The notes under the pieces: generated by a model
What the model was told of the DNA's origin: nothing
The model's database searches: none
What the model saw: only the letters and a program-made list of their open reading frames with translations
Program-made: the position numbers and the translations under genes
Shown here: positions 6,991 through 56,011 of the stretch, piece by piece
Position numbering within the stretch: position 1 is the stretch's first letter
Layout of the letters: the number at the start of each line of letters is the position of its first letter
Origin: Lacrimispora sp. BS-2
Lineage (GTDB): Bacteria > Bacillota > Clostridia > Lachnospirales > Lachnospiraceae
Assembly (NCBI RefSeq): GCF_040207125.1
Contig: NZ_CP157940.1
Span: forward strand, 3,100,001-3,164,000
Length of the DNA stretch: 64,000 nt
Direction: 5' to 3'

Positions 6991-7020
6991 TTCACAAAAT
7001 AAAATTTCCTGTGGTATAAT
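6991..7020 (+). promoter_or_regulatory. Promoter of the structured leader and phospholipase C-like gene
   Basis: TTCACA (6991-6996), an 18-nt spacer and TATAAT (7015-7020) with an upstream TGG, giving an extended -10. The structured leader starts about 10 nt downstream, so the element is at the 5' end of the transcript. The same TTCACA -35 is found before the related leader near 55.98 kb. Confidence 0.65.
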
Positions 7021-7030
7021 CTCCATATAA

Positions 7031-7163
7031 GCAATGAGCAGTGCGAATTAGAACACAGAAAAATTTTCGTCGTGCTTGCACGTAAGAAAATTCTTCTGCG
7101 TTCTAATTCATAGGGCGAATGCCCGTGAGCGAACGAATCCGCAGGATTCGCGAGCTGCACTGC
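7031..7163 (+). ncRNA. Candidate four-way-junction leader RNA, copy 1
   Basis: Closing stem GCAGTGC (7038-7044) with GCACTGC (7157-7163). Inside are three hairpins. The first is long: AATTAGAACACAGAA (7046-7060) pairs with TTCTGCGTTCTAATT (7094-7108). The second is GGGC-GAAT-GCCC (7113-7124). The third is CGAATCC-GCA-GGATTCG (7134-7150). The linkers GCAATGAGCAGTGCGAA and TTCATAGGGCGAAT recur in the copy near 55.9 kb although the first stem there is unrelated in sequence and still pairs. It lies directly after a promoter, in the 5' UTR of the gene at 7321. I do not recognise it as a known riboswitch. Confidence 0.65.
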
Positions 7164-7303
7164 GGATTCGCGAGCTGCACTGCGGATTCGCGGACTGCAC
7201 TACGGATTCGCGAGCTGCACTGCGGATTCGCGGACTGCACTACGGATTCGCAGACTGCACTGCCGATTCGCAGACTGCACTGCCAATTCGCGAACTGCCA
7301 AAA
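7144..7303 (+). repeat. 20-bp tandem repeat array (seven units plus a decayed eighth)
   Basis: Units start at 7144, 7164, 7184, 7204, 7224, 7244 and 7264 with consensus GGATTCGCGAGCTGCACTGC; variants have CGGACT or CAGACT in the middle and CACTAC at the end. An eighth, degenerate unit (7284-7303) runs into the ribosome site of the gene at 7321. There are no spacers, so it is not CRISPR. The first unit is also the 3' strand of the preceding RNA structure (third hairpin plus closing stem), so the array looks like an expansion of that strand. Confidence 0.9.
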
Positions 7304-7320: not shown

Positions 7321-8301
7321 ATGCCTGGTTTTACCACTCACTATCTACTGGGAGTCAAAGTTTTTAATGACATGAAAAACACTCCATTAAAGCGTATAAT
7401 CTCCAAATACCGATGGCTTTATCAGCTTGGTCTCCAGGGACCGGATATTTTTTTTTACAATATCCCCATTCTCCGCCACCGGGATTACCGCAATGTAGGT
7501 TCCTATATGCACGAAAACCATGTACATGATTTTTTTGTTTCCTGCTTAAACCATTTATCCCAGATCGAGTCCCGGCAGCAGAGAGAACAGGCCATTTCTT
7601 ATATGAGCGGCTACTTCTGCCATTACATCGGGGACTCCATCTGCCACCCTTATGTGTACGGAAGGATTGAATATGACGTTAAAAACTCCGGAAACTATCA
7701 TCACGGGCTTCATGCCATGCTGGAAAATGATATTGATGCATTGCTATTGATGAAGTACAAAAGGAAAAGGCCATCTCAGTTCAATCAGGCGGCCACCATC
7801 TGTTTAAACGGCCAGGAGCTGCAGTTCATCTCCGGTTTTTTGTCTTTATGCATCAATGAAGCCTACTATCCCCTAAATTACCGGAATAATTTCCGGGTAA
7901 CCTCCCGGATGGTATCCCGCTCCATTCTGGCTATGCGCTTAGGGTGCCGGACTCTTGCCGATCCTTCCAGCCGTAAGAAAAACAGCCTTGAATTTGTGGA
8001 ATCTCTTTTCCTGCGTACGCACCTTGCCTCCCGGAAACTGGTTACGGACATTCCGCCGGATCCCGTTGTCACCATGAATTTAAATCATGAAACCTGGTGT
8101 AATCCCTGGAACCGCCGCCTTGCATCCCAGGCATCTTTCCCTGATCTCTTCTATCAGTCCATGGCAAAATGCAGTGACGTGTTCTTTTTACTGAACGAGG
8201 AACTGACTTCGCCGGTTCCACTAAAGAACCTGGATCACAATAAGCTTTTAAAGGAGCTTGGCAATTATTCCTACCACAGCGGGCTGGCGGTTGATCAATA
8301 A
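7321..8301 (+). CDS. Zinc-dependent phospholipase C-like protein
   Basis: 326-aa protein of the Zn-dependent phospholipase C / S1-P1 nuclease-like fold family (PF00882 type). The N-terminal MPGFTTHYLLG, GLQGPDIFFY (37-46), YMHENHVHDFF (62-72), YFCHYIGDSICHPY (98-111) and HHGLHAMLENDID (127-139) supply the histidine and aspartate zinc ligands expected of the family. No signal peptide is evident, unlike secreted clostridial alpha-toxins, so it is probably cytosolic and may not be a toxin. ATG at 7321 follows GAGGTG by 6 nt. Its ~300-nt leader holds the structured RNA and the 20-bp array. The true substrate is unknown. Confidence 0.8.
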   Translation: MPGFTTHYLLGVKVFNDMKNTPLKRIISKYRWLYQLGLQGPDIFFYNIPILRHRDYRNVGSYMHENHVHDFFVSCLNHLSQIESRQQREQAISYMSGYFCHYIGDSICHPYVYGRIEYDVKNSGNYHHGLHAMLENDIDALLLMKYKRKRPSQFNQAATICLNGQELQFISGFLSLCINEAYYPLNYRNNFRVTSRMVSRSILAMRLGCRTLADPSSRKKNSLEFVESLFLRTHLASRKLVTDIPPDPVVTMNLNHETWCNPWNRRLASQASFPDLFYQSMAKCSDVFFLLNEELTSPVPLKNLDHNKLLKELGNYSYHSGLAVDQ

Positions 8302-44053: not shown

Positions 44054-45190
44054 TCACCCTATCTTTCCAAAGTTCTCTTTATTGATATCAAAATCCACCT
44101 GCAGCTTAATCGTAAATACGGTTCCGGACAGATCACTGGTCACTTGAATGGTTCCGCCGTGCATATCCACAATATTCTTTGCAATGGCAAGGCCCAGCCC
44201 CGTTCCTCCCGTGTTGGTGGACCGGGACTGTTCCACGCGGTAAAACTTATTGAAGATAAGAGGCAGCTCTTCCTCCGGGATCACATAACCATAATTGATC
44301 ACCTGGATCGTAACCAGTTCTTCGCTTCCATGGACCTTTACCAGGATGCGCTTTCCATCCGCACCGTATTTGATGGCATTGTTGATCAGATTGTCAAACA
44401 GACGGGCAAGAAGGTTGCCGTCTGCCGAGATTATTTGGGCGGGAACATTGCTTTGTAGCTCATAGGAAAGATTCTTATCCACAAAACTGGGATAAAATTC
44501 TTCCAGAAGCTGACTTAAAAGCTTCACCACGTCCACCTTGGCTACGTGCATGGAGATCTTTCCATAGTTCAGCTTTGTAAATCCGAATAAATCCTCAATC
44601 AGCTTTTCCAGCCGCTTTGTCTTTACGTATGCAATCCCTATGTACTTTTTCTGGACTTCCGGATCAAGCTTTGTTTCTCCGGACAACAATTCCAGATACC
44701 CGATGATGGAGGTTAATGGAGTCCTTAAGTCATGAGCAATATTGGTGATGAGCTCGTTCTTGGTCCGCTCCGCCTCCCGTTCCTTGTCCATGAGACCTCT
44801 TAAATCTCCCACCATCTTATTTAAACTGGCTGCCATGACGGAGAATTCATCATCTCCCTCAATGTCAACCGTAATATTTAAATCTCCCTCGGAAATGCTC
44901 TGCATGGCATCAGAAATCCGGCTGATATAACGCATGGACTTTTCCTGGAGGAGGAGAAAGGTGACCGTAAATATTCCGATCCCGAAAATCACATAAATCA
45001 GGATCACCACCACATCAAAGGAGGTGAGCATCTCCACAAATGCATTATCCCTTTGTGTGTTTCTCATGTAGGAGGCTACCAAAGATACATTGGTCACCAG
45101 AAATATCTCGATCAGGACCGTGACCACTGCACTGTAAAAAATATTGGCAATGACCCGGGTATGAAAACGGCGGTTAAGATCACTTTTCAA
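44054..45190 (-). CDS. Sensor histidine kinase (VanS-like)
   Basis: 378-aa membrane kinase with two helices (residues ~16-40 and ~58-82), a HAMP linker (ISRISDAMQSISEGDLNITV), DHp domain with phospho-His in ITNIAHDLRTPLTSIIGYLE and a catalytic domain with N box LFDNLINNAIKYG, F/G boxes NKFYRVEQSRST and GGTGLGLAIAKNIV. It overlaps the response regulator gene by 11 nt. The short extracytoplasmic loop suggests intramembrane sensing, perhaps through the neighbouring ABC system. Confidence 0.93.
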   Translation of the reverse strand: MKSDLNRRFHTRVIANIFYSAVVTVLIEIFLVTNVSLVASYMRNTQRDNAFVEMLTSFDVVVILIYVIFGIGIFTVTFLLLQEKSMRYISRISDAMQSISEGDLNITVDIEGDDEFSVMAASLNKMVGDLRGLMDKEREAERTKNELITNIAHDLRTPLTSIIGYLELLSGETKLDPEVQKKYIGIAYVKTKRLEKLIEDLFGFTKLNYGKISMHVAKVDVVKLLSQLLEEFYPSFVDKNLSYELQSNVPAQIISADGNLLARLFDNLINNAIKYGADGKRILVKVHGSEELVTIQVINYGYVIPEEELPLIFNKFYRVEQSRSTNTGGTGLGLAIAKNIVDMHGGTIQVTSDLSGTVFTIKLQVDFDINKENFGKIG

Positions 45191-45887
45191 TTTTGTATCC
45201 TACCCCCCAAACAGTGGTGATGATTTTGTTCTGTCTGGTATCTTCCTTCATCTTACCCCGCAGCCGTCTGATATGTACCATTACTGTGTTGTTGGCCTCA
45301 TAAACCTTTTCATTCCACACCTTTTCAAAAATCTCATCGGTACTGAACACTCTTCCGGGATTGGAAGCCAATAAGTAGAGGATGTCAAACTCAATGGGGG
45401 TAAGCTTGATCTCTTCCCCATAAACAGTCACCTTATGGTTATCCTTGTTAATGGTCAGTCCTCTTATGGCGATTTCATTCTTAGCAGATTCGTTTGCCGC
45501 ACTGTTGGGGTTTAACTGGGTGTAACGGCGAAGCTGGGATTTTACCCGTGCCGTCAGCTCCAGGGGATTAAAGGGCTTTGTCACGTAATCATCAGCCCCG
45601 GTTCCAAGTCCCAGAATTTTGTCCAGATCCGTGGACTTGGCGCTGAGCATAATGATGGGAATGTTATTGGTCTCCCGTATTTTCTTGCACATTTGCAGGC
45701 CATCCATTCCTGGCATCATAATGTCTAAAAGAACCAGATGGATCTGGGTCTTTTCCAGAATTTCCAGTCCTTCTTCCGCATTATTTGCTTTATGTACTTT
45801 ATATCCATCACTGACCAGATAAATCTCCACTAAGTCTGCAATTTCTTTCTCATCATCCACAACCAAGATGTTTATTGTTTCGGACAT
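45180..45887 (-). CDS. OmpR/PhoB family response regulator (VanR-like)
   Basis: 235-aa regulator. Receiver domain 1-120 with acid pocket VVDDEKE, phospho-Asp in HLVLLDIMMPGMDGLQM and Lys in YVTKPFNPLEL; winged-helix DNA-binding domain in the last 100 residues (LTPIEFDILYLLASNPGRVF; NTVMVHIRRLRGKM). GGGAGG lies upstream of ATG. The gene is the first of the convoy and its leader carries copy 3 of the structured RNA. Confidence 0.95.
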   Translation of the reverse strand: MSETINILVVDDEKEIADLVEIYLVSDGYKVHKANNAEEGLEILEKTQIHLVLLDIMMPGMDGLQMCKKIRETNNIPIIMLSAKSTDLDKILGLGTGADDYVTKPFNPLELTARVKSQLRRYTQLNPNSAANESAKNEIAIRGLTINKDNHKVTVYGEEIKLTPIEFDILYLLASNPGRVFSTDEIFEKVWNEKVYEANNTVMVHIRRLRGKMKEDTRQNKIITTVWGVGYKIEK

Positions 45888-45925
45888 GAAAAATACCTCC
45901 CTTGTCGTATGTATATATAAGGTTC

Positions 45926-46057
45926 AGCGGTGCATTCATAATTTGGCTGACGCCAAATTATTCATGACGGGCGTTCCGCCCTATAGAAACACTTGCACAG
46001 TTCGTGCTTAGTGAGCAAATTCCCACGCACGAACTGTGCAAATGTTTCTGCACCGCT
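45926..46057 (-). ncRNA. Candidate four-way-junction leader RNA, copy 3
   Basis: Read on the minus strand: closing stem AGCGGTGC (46050-46057) with GCACCGCT (45926-45933), perfect over 8 bp. The long first hairpin has its arms at 46027-46049 and 45985-46007, 22 of 23 positions pairing plus one G-U. The second is GGGCG-GAA-CGCCC (45969-45981). The third is ATAATTTGGC/GCCAAATTAT (45938-45961). The linker ATAGGGCGGAACGCCCGT matches the other copies. It starts about 14 nt after an extended -10 (TAAAAT, 46071-46076) and ends 38 nt before the VanR-like gene. Confidence 0.65.
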
Positions 46058-46070
46058 TAGACTCTTATCC

Positions 46071-46080
46071 ATTTTACCAC
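46071..46080 (-). promoter_or_regulatory. Promoter of VanR-like operon
   Basis: Minus-strand extended -10 GTGGTAAAAT (TAAAAT = 46071-46076). No good -35 box is seen at the usual spacing, as expected for an extended -10 type. Confidence 0.45.
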
Positions 46081-55603: not shown

Positions 55604-55783
55604 TTATACAAACTGATTTCTCTCCCTGTTGTAATGATAATCAATCGCGGCCAGAGAAAGGGTCAGATCCTCTTCCCGGATCCCAAGACTATGGCAGCAT
55701 TCCTCCAGAGAAGGATAATAATCTCTTAACTGAGTATTGACATAGCTTAGCAGCATCACTGGATCTTTAGGTATGTTAAACAT
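55604..55783 (-). CDS. DUF4250 protein (59 aa)
   Basis: A 59-codon gene: it starts MFNIPKDPVMLLSYVNTQ, continues LRDYYPSLEECCHSLGIREE and ends AIDYHYNRERNQFV, followed by two TAA stops. This is the whole DUF4250 family pattern, a small soluble helical protein common in Clostridia with no known function. AGGAGG lies 6 nt before the ATG. Its leader carries copy 2 of the structured RNA, so this tiny gene has a long, structured 5' UTR of about 190 nt. The antisense open frame from 55522 is not supported. Confidence 0.85.
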   Translation of the reverse strand: MFNIPKDPVMLLSYVNTQLRDYYPSLEECCHSLGIREEDLTLSLAAIDYHYNRERNQFV

Positions 55784-55839
55784 TTTTTCCTCCTGTTATG
55801 CTATTATTAGTGCATACTATCATATAAATCCATGAGTCC

Positions 55840-55974
55840 GCAGTGGAAGCTGATAAAACCGCAGGTTTTATCAGCTCACGGGTATTCGCCCTATGAAATA
55901 AGGCAGGGAAAGATTTTCTTATGTGCGAGCACAACGAAATTTTTTTCCTGCCTTATTTCGCACTGCTCATTGCT
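55840..55974 (-). ncRNA. Candidate four-way-junction leader RNA, copy 2
   Basis: Minus strand: AGCAATGAGCAGTGCGAA opens the element, as in copy 1. Closing stem GCAGTG (55961-55966) pairs with CACTGC (55840-55845). The first hairpin AAATAAGGCAGG pairs across 55896-55911 and 55944-55959 and shares no stem sequence with copy 1. The second hairpin, GGGCGAATACCC, is at 55880-55891. The third is CTGATAAAACC-TGC-GGTTTTATCAG (55850-55874). TSS is expected near 55976 and the DUF4250 start is 57 nt after the element. Confidence 0.65.
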
Positions 55975-55982
55975 TCATGAAC

Positions 55983-56011
55983 ATTCTATCATAATTTTTC
56001 CCAGTTGTGAA
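55983..56011 (-). promoter_or_regulatory. Promoter of DUF4250 leader
   Basis: Minus-strand TTCACA (56006-56011), a 17-nt spacer and TAGAAT (55983-55988). The RNA element begins 8 nt after the -10, the same spacing as in copy 1. Confidence 0.6.

Follow-up and report, generated by a model that had tools for sequence, protein, structure and literature searches.

A dispersed four-helix element of Clostridia that probably is of mobile type and supplies folded leaders to unrelated genes

BOX, REP/BIME, ERIC and Correia/nemis are non-autonomous repeats of small size; they place hairpins in transcripts and can change how the mRNA is processed or how stable it is. The insertion sites of class C group II introns lie immediately behind intrinsic terminators. 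The element described here, which is present in three copies in the window (the whole stretch of 64,000 nucleotides of Lacrimispora sp. BS-2 DNA that was analysed), differs from the former in its four-helix junction with a proposed pseudoknot, in its placement at transcription-unit edges and in that no flush target duplication is seen here. It can be likened to the latter by the terminator position of 11 of 28 copies in class-level genomes, whereas it is only about 145 bp long and has no ORF; the Rfam group II intron domain lies near the element at two loci only (L312, about 350 nt away, and L301, 1.2 kb away). By description, the nearest known kind is that of the dispersed structured repeats such as the bcr elements. 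In the passages of PMC3446304 and PMC6542083 that deal with them, bcr1-bcr18 of Bacillus cereus are repeats of 100-400 bp scattered through intergenic DNA, some of them structurally conserved or with mobile features, and they often lie in UTRs and between operon genes. The likeness, that of dispersed structured repeats, is one of description; the bcr repeats belong to another host group, their mobility is tied to TTTAT motifs, and the same passages make no mention of flush insertion behind −10 boxes. The literature searches gave no paper describing the element; they did not reach supplementary lists, and the element may be listed among the 3161 candidates of which PMC8040213 speaks.

The other system to be compared is the Clostridiales-1 RNA (RF01699; PMC2864571). 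The original prediction had recognised no known riboswitch, and this agrees with Rfam 15: no family reached its gathering score in the window, and in 40 further loci none did so on the element itself, the matches there being to neighbours (tRNA, rRNA, a group II intron domain, T-box, riboswitches), with the 5S rRNA matches overlapping the start of the element model by 2 nt in L344 and L363. At relaxed thresholds, RF01699 gave subthreshold full-length matches to copy 1 (34 bits, E 5.7e-6) and copy 3 (23.1 bits), and its best and only match in the own genome (30.8 bits) falls on a degraded copy of the family (L120). By eye, Clostridiales-1 has, like the element, a four-helix layout with a closing stem, a GCUUGC tip on P2 and the GGA-stem-GAA-stem-GGA motif in P4. 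It is also multicopy and dispersed in the same bacterial family. These likenesses would fit a diverged branch of Clostridiales-1, which we nevertheless hold to be very improbable, because the gathering score of 48 bits was missed in the window and the 40 further loci, copy 2 gave no match even at relaxed thresholds, and the reverse search of 26 RF01699 loci gave at best 20.2 bits with our model R1 and 23.2 bits with R2, on P2 only. By eye, RF01699 also has other linkers and another P3, together with outer inverted repeats, and although −10-like hexamers lie 6-25 nt ahead of 15 of its 26 loci, they do so at no fixed distance, with a maximum of six at one spacing. No intermediates above threshold with both the RF01699 and the family models were seen. 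With subthreshold matches and a failed reciprocal search, membership in Clostridiales-1 was rejected. It is noted that, by eye, several multicopy RF01699 loci (L061-L090) are flanked by longer inverted repeats (for example GGTCAAAAGG...CCTTTTGACC and TATGATG...CATCATA), and Clostridiales-1 looks as if it were itself part of a mobile repeat.

The three window copies and their surroundings are listed in Table 1.

Table 1. Positions of the element copies, their parts, promoters and neighbouring genes in the window
Feature	Positions	Strand	Remark
Copy 1, subtype A	7023..7168	+	144 bits with model R2
Copy 2, subtype B	45922..46071	-	79.2 bits with model R2
Copy 3, subtype A	55835..55980	-	126.4 bits with model R2
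5' tail of copy 1 (CAU)	7024..7026	+	proposed pseudoknot partner 7125-7127 (GUG)
P1 5' strand GCAGTGC, copy 1	7038..7044	+	
P2 long hairpin, copy 1	7045..7109	+	family-wide hypervariable yet paired
P3 hairpin GGGC-GAAT-GCCC, copy 1	7113..7124	+	
P4 hairpin, copy 1	7129..7155	+	
P1 3' strand GCACTGC, copy 1	7157..7163	+	
Tandem array, copy 1	7144..7298	+	period 20, 7.8 copies; unit is P4 3' strand plus P1 3' strand
−10 box TATAAT, copy 1	7015..7020	+	same promoter in 17 element-free relatives
−10-like TAAAAT (TGTGGTAAAAT), copy 2	46071..46076	-	closer to the element than in subtype A
−10 box TAGAAT, copy 3	55983..55988	-	
Gene behind copy 1	7321..8301	+	zinc-dependent phospholipase C domain, PF00882
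Gene behind copy 2	45180..45887	-	OmpR-type response regulator, PF00072 and PF00486
Histidine kinase gene, next after the response regulator gene of copy 2	44054-45190		
Gene behind copy 3	55604..55783	-	DUF4250 protein, 59 aa, PF14056

In the window, model R2, which was built from alignments that include the three window copies, finds at E ≤ 10 these three copies and five other matches, one of 26.1 bits on the opposite strand of copy 1 and four of 5.7-11.8 bits. That there are three leaders of one fold, as originally predicted, is borne out: all three lie where they had been placed, and copies 1, 2 and 3 beat all of 200 dinucleotide shuffles in RNA folding (z = −6.6, −12.4 and −6.7, respectively). 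The 5' edge, which had been put at 7031, has to be moved, because conservation begins further upstream, at TGGTATAATGTNCACGAAAGCAATGAGC; in the first 52 copies of the family it starts sharply at TGGTATAATGTNCACG. Over the family the element is about 145 nt long and has four helices, P1-P4, with the 5' tail NCACGAAAGCAATGA followed by P1 (GCAGTGC/GCACTGC with a covarying centre), P2 with about 20 hypervariable pairs and an inner GUGC-UUGC-type tip, then ATA, P3 (GGGC-NNNN-GCCC), GUGA, P4, the P1 3' strand and GGACT. P4 occurs in two forms. One is paired throughout; the other has tandem G.A/A.G pairs (45-47 of 93 rows) and often a GCGAAGC tip.

Judged from the alignments, the P1-P4 fold is a covarying structure and the covariation is very strong. 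With a structure of 46 pairs, 86.9% of the paired cells in the 52-copy alignment hold a pair versus 66.4 when shuffled, and the covariation is 0.515 versus 0.160 shuffled and 0.090-0.127 slid; in the 96-row alignment it is 0.640 versus 0.162 shuffled and at most 0.113 slid, and among the 95 distinct sequences of that alignment 46 of 46 pairs have changes on both sides, as the claim of compensatory change in several stems would have it. The first and third stems had also been called unrelated in sequence yet still paired. The stems of copies 1 and 3 are diverged and not unrelated, since both copies are of one subtype and copy 2 is of a second. For a pseudoknot between the 5' tail and J3-4, in which model bases 2-4 (CAC) would pair with the GUG after P3, there is moderate support, weaker than for the main fold: over the 95 sequences the three pairs are 86% paired with covariation 0.293 versus 0.188 ± 0.018 shuffled and at most 0.062 slid, and 132 of 500 shuffles match its number of pairs with double changes. 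In distant copies CGC faces GCG, and in one copy UAA faces UUA (L302, by eye).

The family is large. In the own genome of 4.49 Mb the linker pattern has 16 matches versus none for the reversed control, and model R1 gives 41 matches at E ≤ 1, with 32 strong ones (E < 1e-7), 16 of which were among the seeds of R1. Scanning species genomes for exact matches yielded 43 loci, with titles that include Lachnospiraceae bacteria, Lacrimispora celerecrescens, Hungatella, Parablautia and others; by eye, the copy-1 leader of L. celerecrescens (L055) is the same as that of genus member G155. The covariance-model search of Clostridia genomes that the original prediction had proposed finds the family in genus, order and class genomes, namely in 25 of 25 genus genomes (R1, E ≤ 0.001; 1-35 copies each), 55 of 295 order-level genomes (R1, E ≤ 1e-6) and 28 of 391 class-level genomes (R2, E ≤ 1e-7), where the order-level and class-level samples contain the own genus and the filters are stricter than in the genus search. 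As to the sets used, R2 was built from 96 rows; alignment A2 omits seven of the 43 scan loci (L038, L046, L053, L054, L058, L059, L060), three of the four tandem copies of L056 and the partial copy in L032; alignment A4 was made from 85 chosen loci; one model search took 100 chosen loci, with L116, L248-L251 and others omitted; and the 28 class-level loci consist of 11 from the search output and 17 chosen from five genomes. Based on these searches, the family is present in several families of the class Clostridia and common in Lachnospiraceae.

Comparison of orthologous sites within the genus, with gene names assigned by eye, gives filled and empty states at the same promoter or gene end. At a trpS-like locus, 7 of 24 genus genomes have the element right behind TTGACA-N16-TATAAT (TGGTATAAT), while the 17 empty ones have an element-free TTGACA-N16-TACAAT (TGGTACAAT). 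The site of window copy 1, compared over 23 genus genomes, is filled behind TATAAT in 6 and empty in 17, the −10 being the same in the empty sites, where the leader is short and plain. At a groEL-like 3' end, among 25 genomes, the element is within 3-5 nt of TAA in 6, a remnant is present in 1, and 18 are empty; the remnant (L168, genus genome G155) retains the 5' tail and the P1 5' strand, with the rest deleted. From such sites we infer that absence is the older state. At a dnaB-like locus a divergent copy overlaps the stop codon, and of the 23 loci read, 14 have P2, P3 and P4 by eye, 6 have a terminator-like hairpin only, 2 are cut by contig ends and 1 is shortened, the own-genome copy (52.2 bits) being the only one that was scored with a model. 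In 155 ortholog comparisons, which are not independent and include tandem copies, 575 pair positions changed on both sides versus 167.5 expected with independent sides, and 504 of them are still paired; the identity is 86% between orthologs and 71% between paralogs within one genome. Because of the compensated double changes and the higher identity of orthologs, the copies are taken to be inherited in place with their stems maintained. P1, with 7 compensated double changes versus 72 one-sided breaks, shows little compensation in place, which counts against the explanation that we favour below.

For the position of the element, 112 copies from seven genus genomes were grouped by their flanks into ortholog groups, 41 of which are usable as independent insertions; short pieces and the surplus tandem copies in L190 and L242 do not enter the counts per insertion. 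A TATAAT-like hexamer (at least 5/6) starts 6-9 nt before the model start in 25 of the 41 insertions by group median, 15 of them with 6/6, and in 22 when the first member of each group is scored, compared with 3.6% of 1720 control windows. In 17 of the 41 insertions, compared with 46 of 1599 control positions (2.9%), the stop codon of a co-directional upstream ORF (90 codons or longer) falls in the interval −3..+16 around the element start. By our own tally a −10 box or a stop codon is at the edge in 36 of 41, and window copy 2 is among the five with neither, despite its closer TAAAAT box. Outside the window genome, 29 of 36 family-level copies of the first 52-copy set, which were chosen by the exact linker pattern, have a −10-like box. 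Thus the promoter-proximal location that had been predicted agrees with copies lying directly behind −10 boxes; the distance from TTCACA to the −10, which had been said to be the same in two copies, is as read from the sequence 18 nt in copy 1 but 17 nt in copy 3. No −35 signal at a fixed distance was found in the first 52 copies, and a TTGACA-like hexamer (at least 5/6) starts 30-31 nt ahead of the element in 19 of 101 genus copies. A second TATAAT-like box starts 5 nt behind the element in 21 of the 101 (e.g., L109, L095, L092), and in L109 it is present though no −10 box precedes the element. In 11 genus genomes, mostly low-copy ones, a copy has the stop codon of a gene on one side and an ftsE-like gene on the other.

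Outside the genus, the element is flush (0-1 nt) behind tRNA-Thr(ggt) in L297 and L309 and behind tRNA-Arg(cct) in L306 and L310, and other copies sit behind ORF stop codons. In L296 (1352-1500), tRNA-Arg and the element are separated by a duplicated 3' fragment of tRNA-Arg, which resembles the att-site scar that a lost integrative element would leave. The element is flush behind a hairpin-plus-T terminator at 11 of 28 class-level loci and at 1 of 22 order-level loci, compared with 24 of 1250 control positions. Among those 11, the hairpin follows immediately on a c-di-GMP-I aptamer in L342, on a T-box in L356 and on a cobalamin riboswitch in L360; the end of a cobalamin aptamer is about 230 nt ahead in L366. 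5S rRNA precedes the element in L358 and L365, both among the 11, and in L344 and L363, a tRNA does so in class-level locus L343, and a stop codon is within 11 nt at seven class-level loci (L341, L345, L352, L353, L355, L357, L367). By eye, 21 of the 28 class-level loci are at a border, the seven without a clear one being L346, L348, L349, L350, L354, L359 and L364. Copies that have no −10 box more often carry a T-run in the 3' arm of P2 (Fisher p 0.04 with the original classification, and 0.0008 only once the three borderline loci L301, L308 and L312 are reassigned by hand), which is suggestive only of P2 as a possible intrinsic terminator.

Such positions might mean that a mobile element targets the transcription machinery, entering the DNA in the sense direction where RNA polymerase opens or leaves the template, and to this we give a rather small chance. 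The targets would then be the promoter start site, the terminator U-tract and the ends of stable RNA genes, the RNA of the element would begin or continue the host transcript, and the 5'-tail pseudoknot would need the +1 position. If true, mobile RNA elements would include a class directed at transcript borders.

It had also been suggested that the leaders carry a general signal or an RNA working in trans. This does not fit the presence or absence of the element at orthologous sites, its multiplication to as many as 35 copies in a genus genome, and its copies behind stop codons, tRNAs, 5S rRNA and terminators, all of which point to a dispersed mobile-type element that would be a leader only where it is located at a promoter. 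A more general form of the same idea, that of a riboswitch-like or protein-binding cis leader or a trans-acting RNA spread by selection for one signal that many genes need, would draw on the conserved linkers and the pseudoknot, on the position behind −10 boxes and on the retention of orthologous copies across species. We regard it as improbable, given that of the genus genomes compared at the same promoter, 17 of 24 in one case and 17 of 23 in the other have no element there. A ligand switch in particular is unlikely because the downstream genes are unrelated, as predicted (in the window PF00882, an OmpR-type regulator and DUF4250; elsewhere partly by eye), because by reading there is no U-tract behind the P1 3' strand and the distance to the next ORF is variable, and because the same element stands behind tRNAs, 5S rRNA and terminators.

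Like a MITE or other non-autonomous transposon, the element is multicopy and present or absent at orthologous sites. No target-site duplication flush at both ends was found in the 41 insertions (60-nt flanks). A shared flank word of 8-9 letters is present in 8 of the 41 versus 6.6% in the control, a mild excess; nearest to a flush duplication is window copy 3, with TATGATAG 5 nt before and 10 nt behind it, and in L346 (1443-1707) a direct repeat of about 55 bp flanks the element and takes in the start of the downstream gene. The second TATAAT at the trpS-like locus is not a duplication, since a similar sequence stands at that place in the empty sites too. Y1 transposases (PF01797) are present in 20 of 25 genus genomes with counts that do not track the element counts, and Y1/IS200-IS605 was rejected as a simple partner, being absent from G154 and G157, which have 27 and 35 copies. 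The viral contigs had no exact linker-pattern match and the plasmids no blastn match of copy 1. Tandem amplification recurs: in Parablautia L056 (4441-5019) four whole copies lie head-to-tail with a spacing of 147 bp, in genus genome G158 (L242, 1201-2465) about nine full or partial copies do so with a spacing of about 140 bp, and the 3' part of copy 1 is amplified as listed in Table 1. The lone P1 5' strand of copy 1 has many alternative partners in this last array. By eye, 3'-part arrays of a similar kind also stand behind copies from other species (L029, L031, L044, L050).

The element could also be a purely DNA-level mobile repeat, the palindromes of which matter as single-stranded or cruciform DNA in transposition, with the arms kept matched by template-switch repair and the RNA inert. 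Inside the genus, GU and AC cells are equally frequent (99 vs 90), as expected with a constraint on symmetric DNA palindromes; RNA-level and DNA-level constraint are therefore not separated within the genus, and this counts against the explanation that we favour. The window copies 1, 2 and 3 also fold strongly with DNA parameters (z −5.9, −11.2, −6.2), copies occur in several kinds of site, one locus (L136/L137) has the element between opposite-strand genes, and the mild excess of short shared flank words mentioned above would fit as well. Across the wider family, however, GU exceeds AC (101 vs 38, counted in a covariance-model-fitted alignment, a setting that favours GU), and about half of the rows retain tandem G.A/A.G pairs in P4. 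Moreover, covariation between species links the two P1 strands, which lie about 110 nt from each other, and is also seen in the pseudoknot, so that local template switching is a poor account. On balance we consider a repeat that acts at the DNA level alone to be somewhat unlikely.

We propose, as the explanation that is probably correct though with real reserve, that the element is a dispersed non-autonomous structured element of mobile type at transcription-unit edges, which at promoters becomes a folded, probably cis-acting mRNA leader. The sequences themselves show the fold and its covariation, the family, the flush placement, promoters or gene ends that element-free relatives share, and the compensatory evolution in place. 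Behind a −10 box the RNA would start at the element and the gene would gain a compact folded 5' leader, making up the first ~145 nt of otherwise unrelated mRNAs. This leader would act in cis on the processing or decay of the message, not as a ligand switch, with the long P2 helix being a plausible RNase III substrate and the folded 5' end a plausible exonuclease barrier, while at gene 3' ends P2 may serve as a terminator. Besides the points noted before, the terminator position at only 1 of 22 order-level loci, the lack of a flush target duplication and the absence of Y1 transposases from the two copy-rich genomes G154 and G157 count against the proposal.

Finally, the element constitutes a large RNA-like family with strong covariation, for which Rfam 15 gives no match at threshold. 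For a repeat it is unusual to sit flush against −10 boxes, stop codons, stable-RNA ends and terminators, and this placement raises the question of how the element finds the transcript borders. With it, unrelated genes would be given the same folded mRNA 5' end, and because natural pairs of orthologous promoters with and without the element exist, the effect of an added structured leader can be tested directly.
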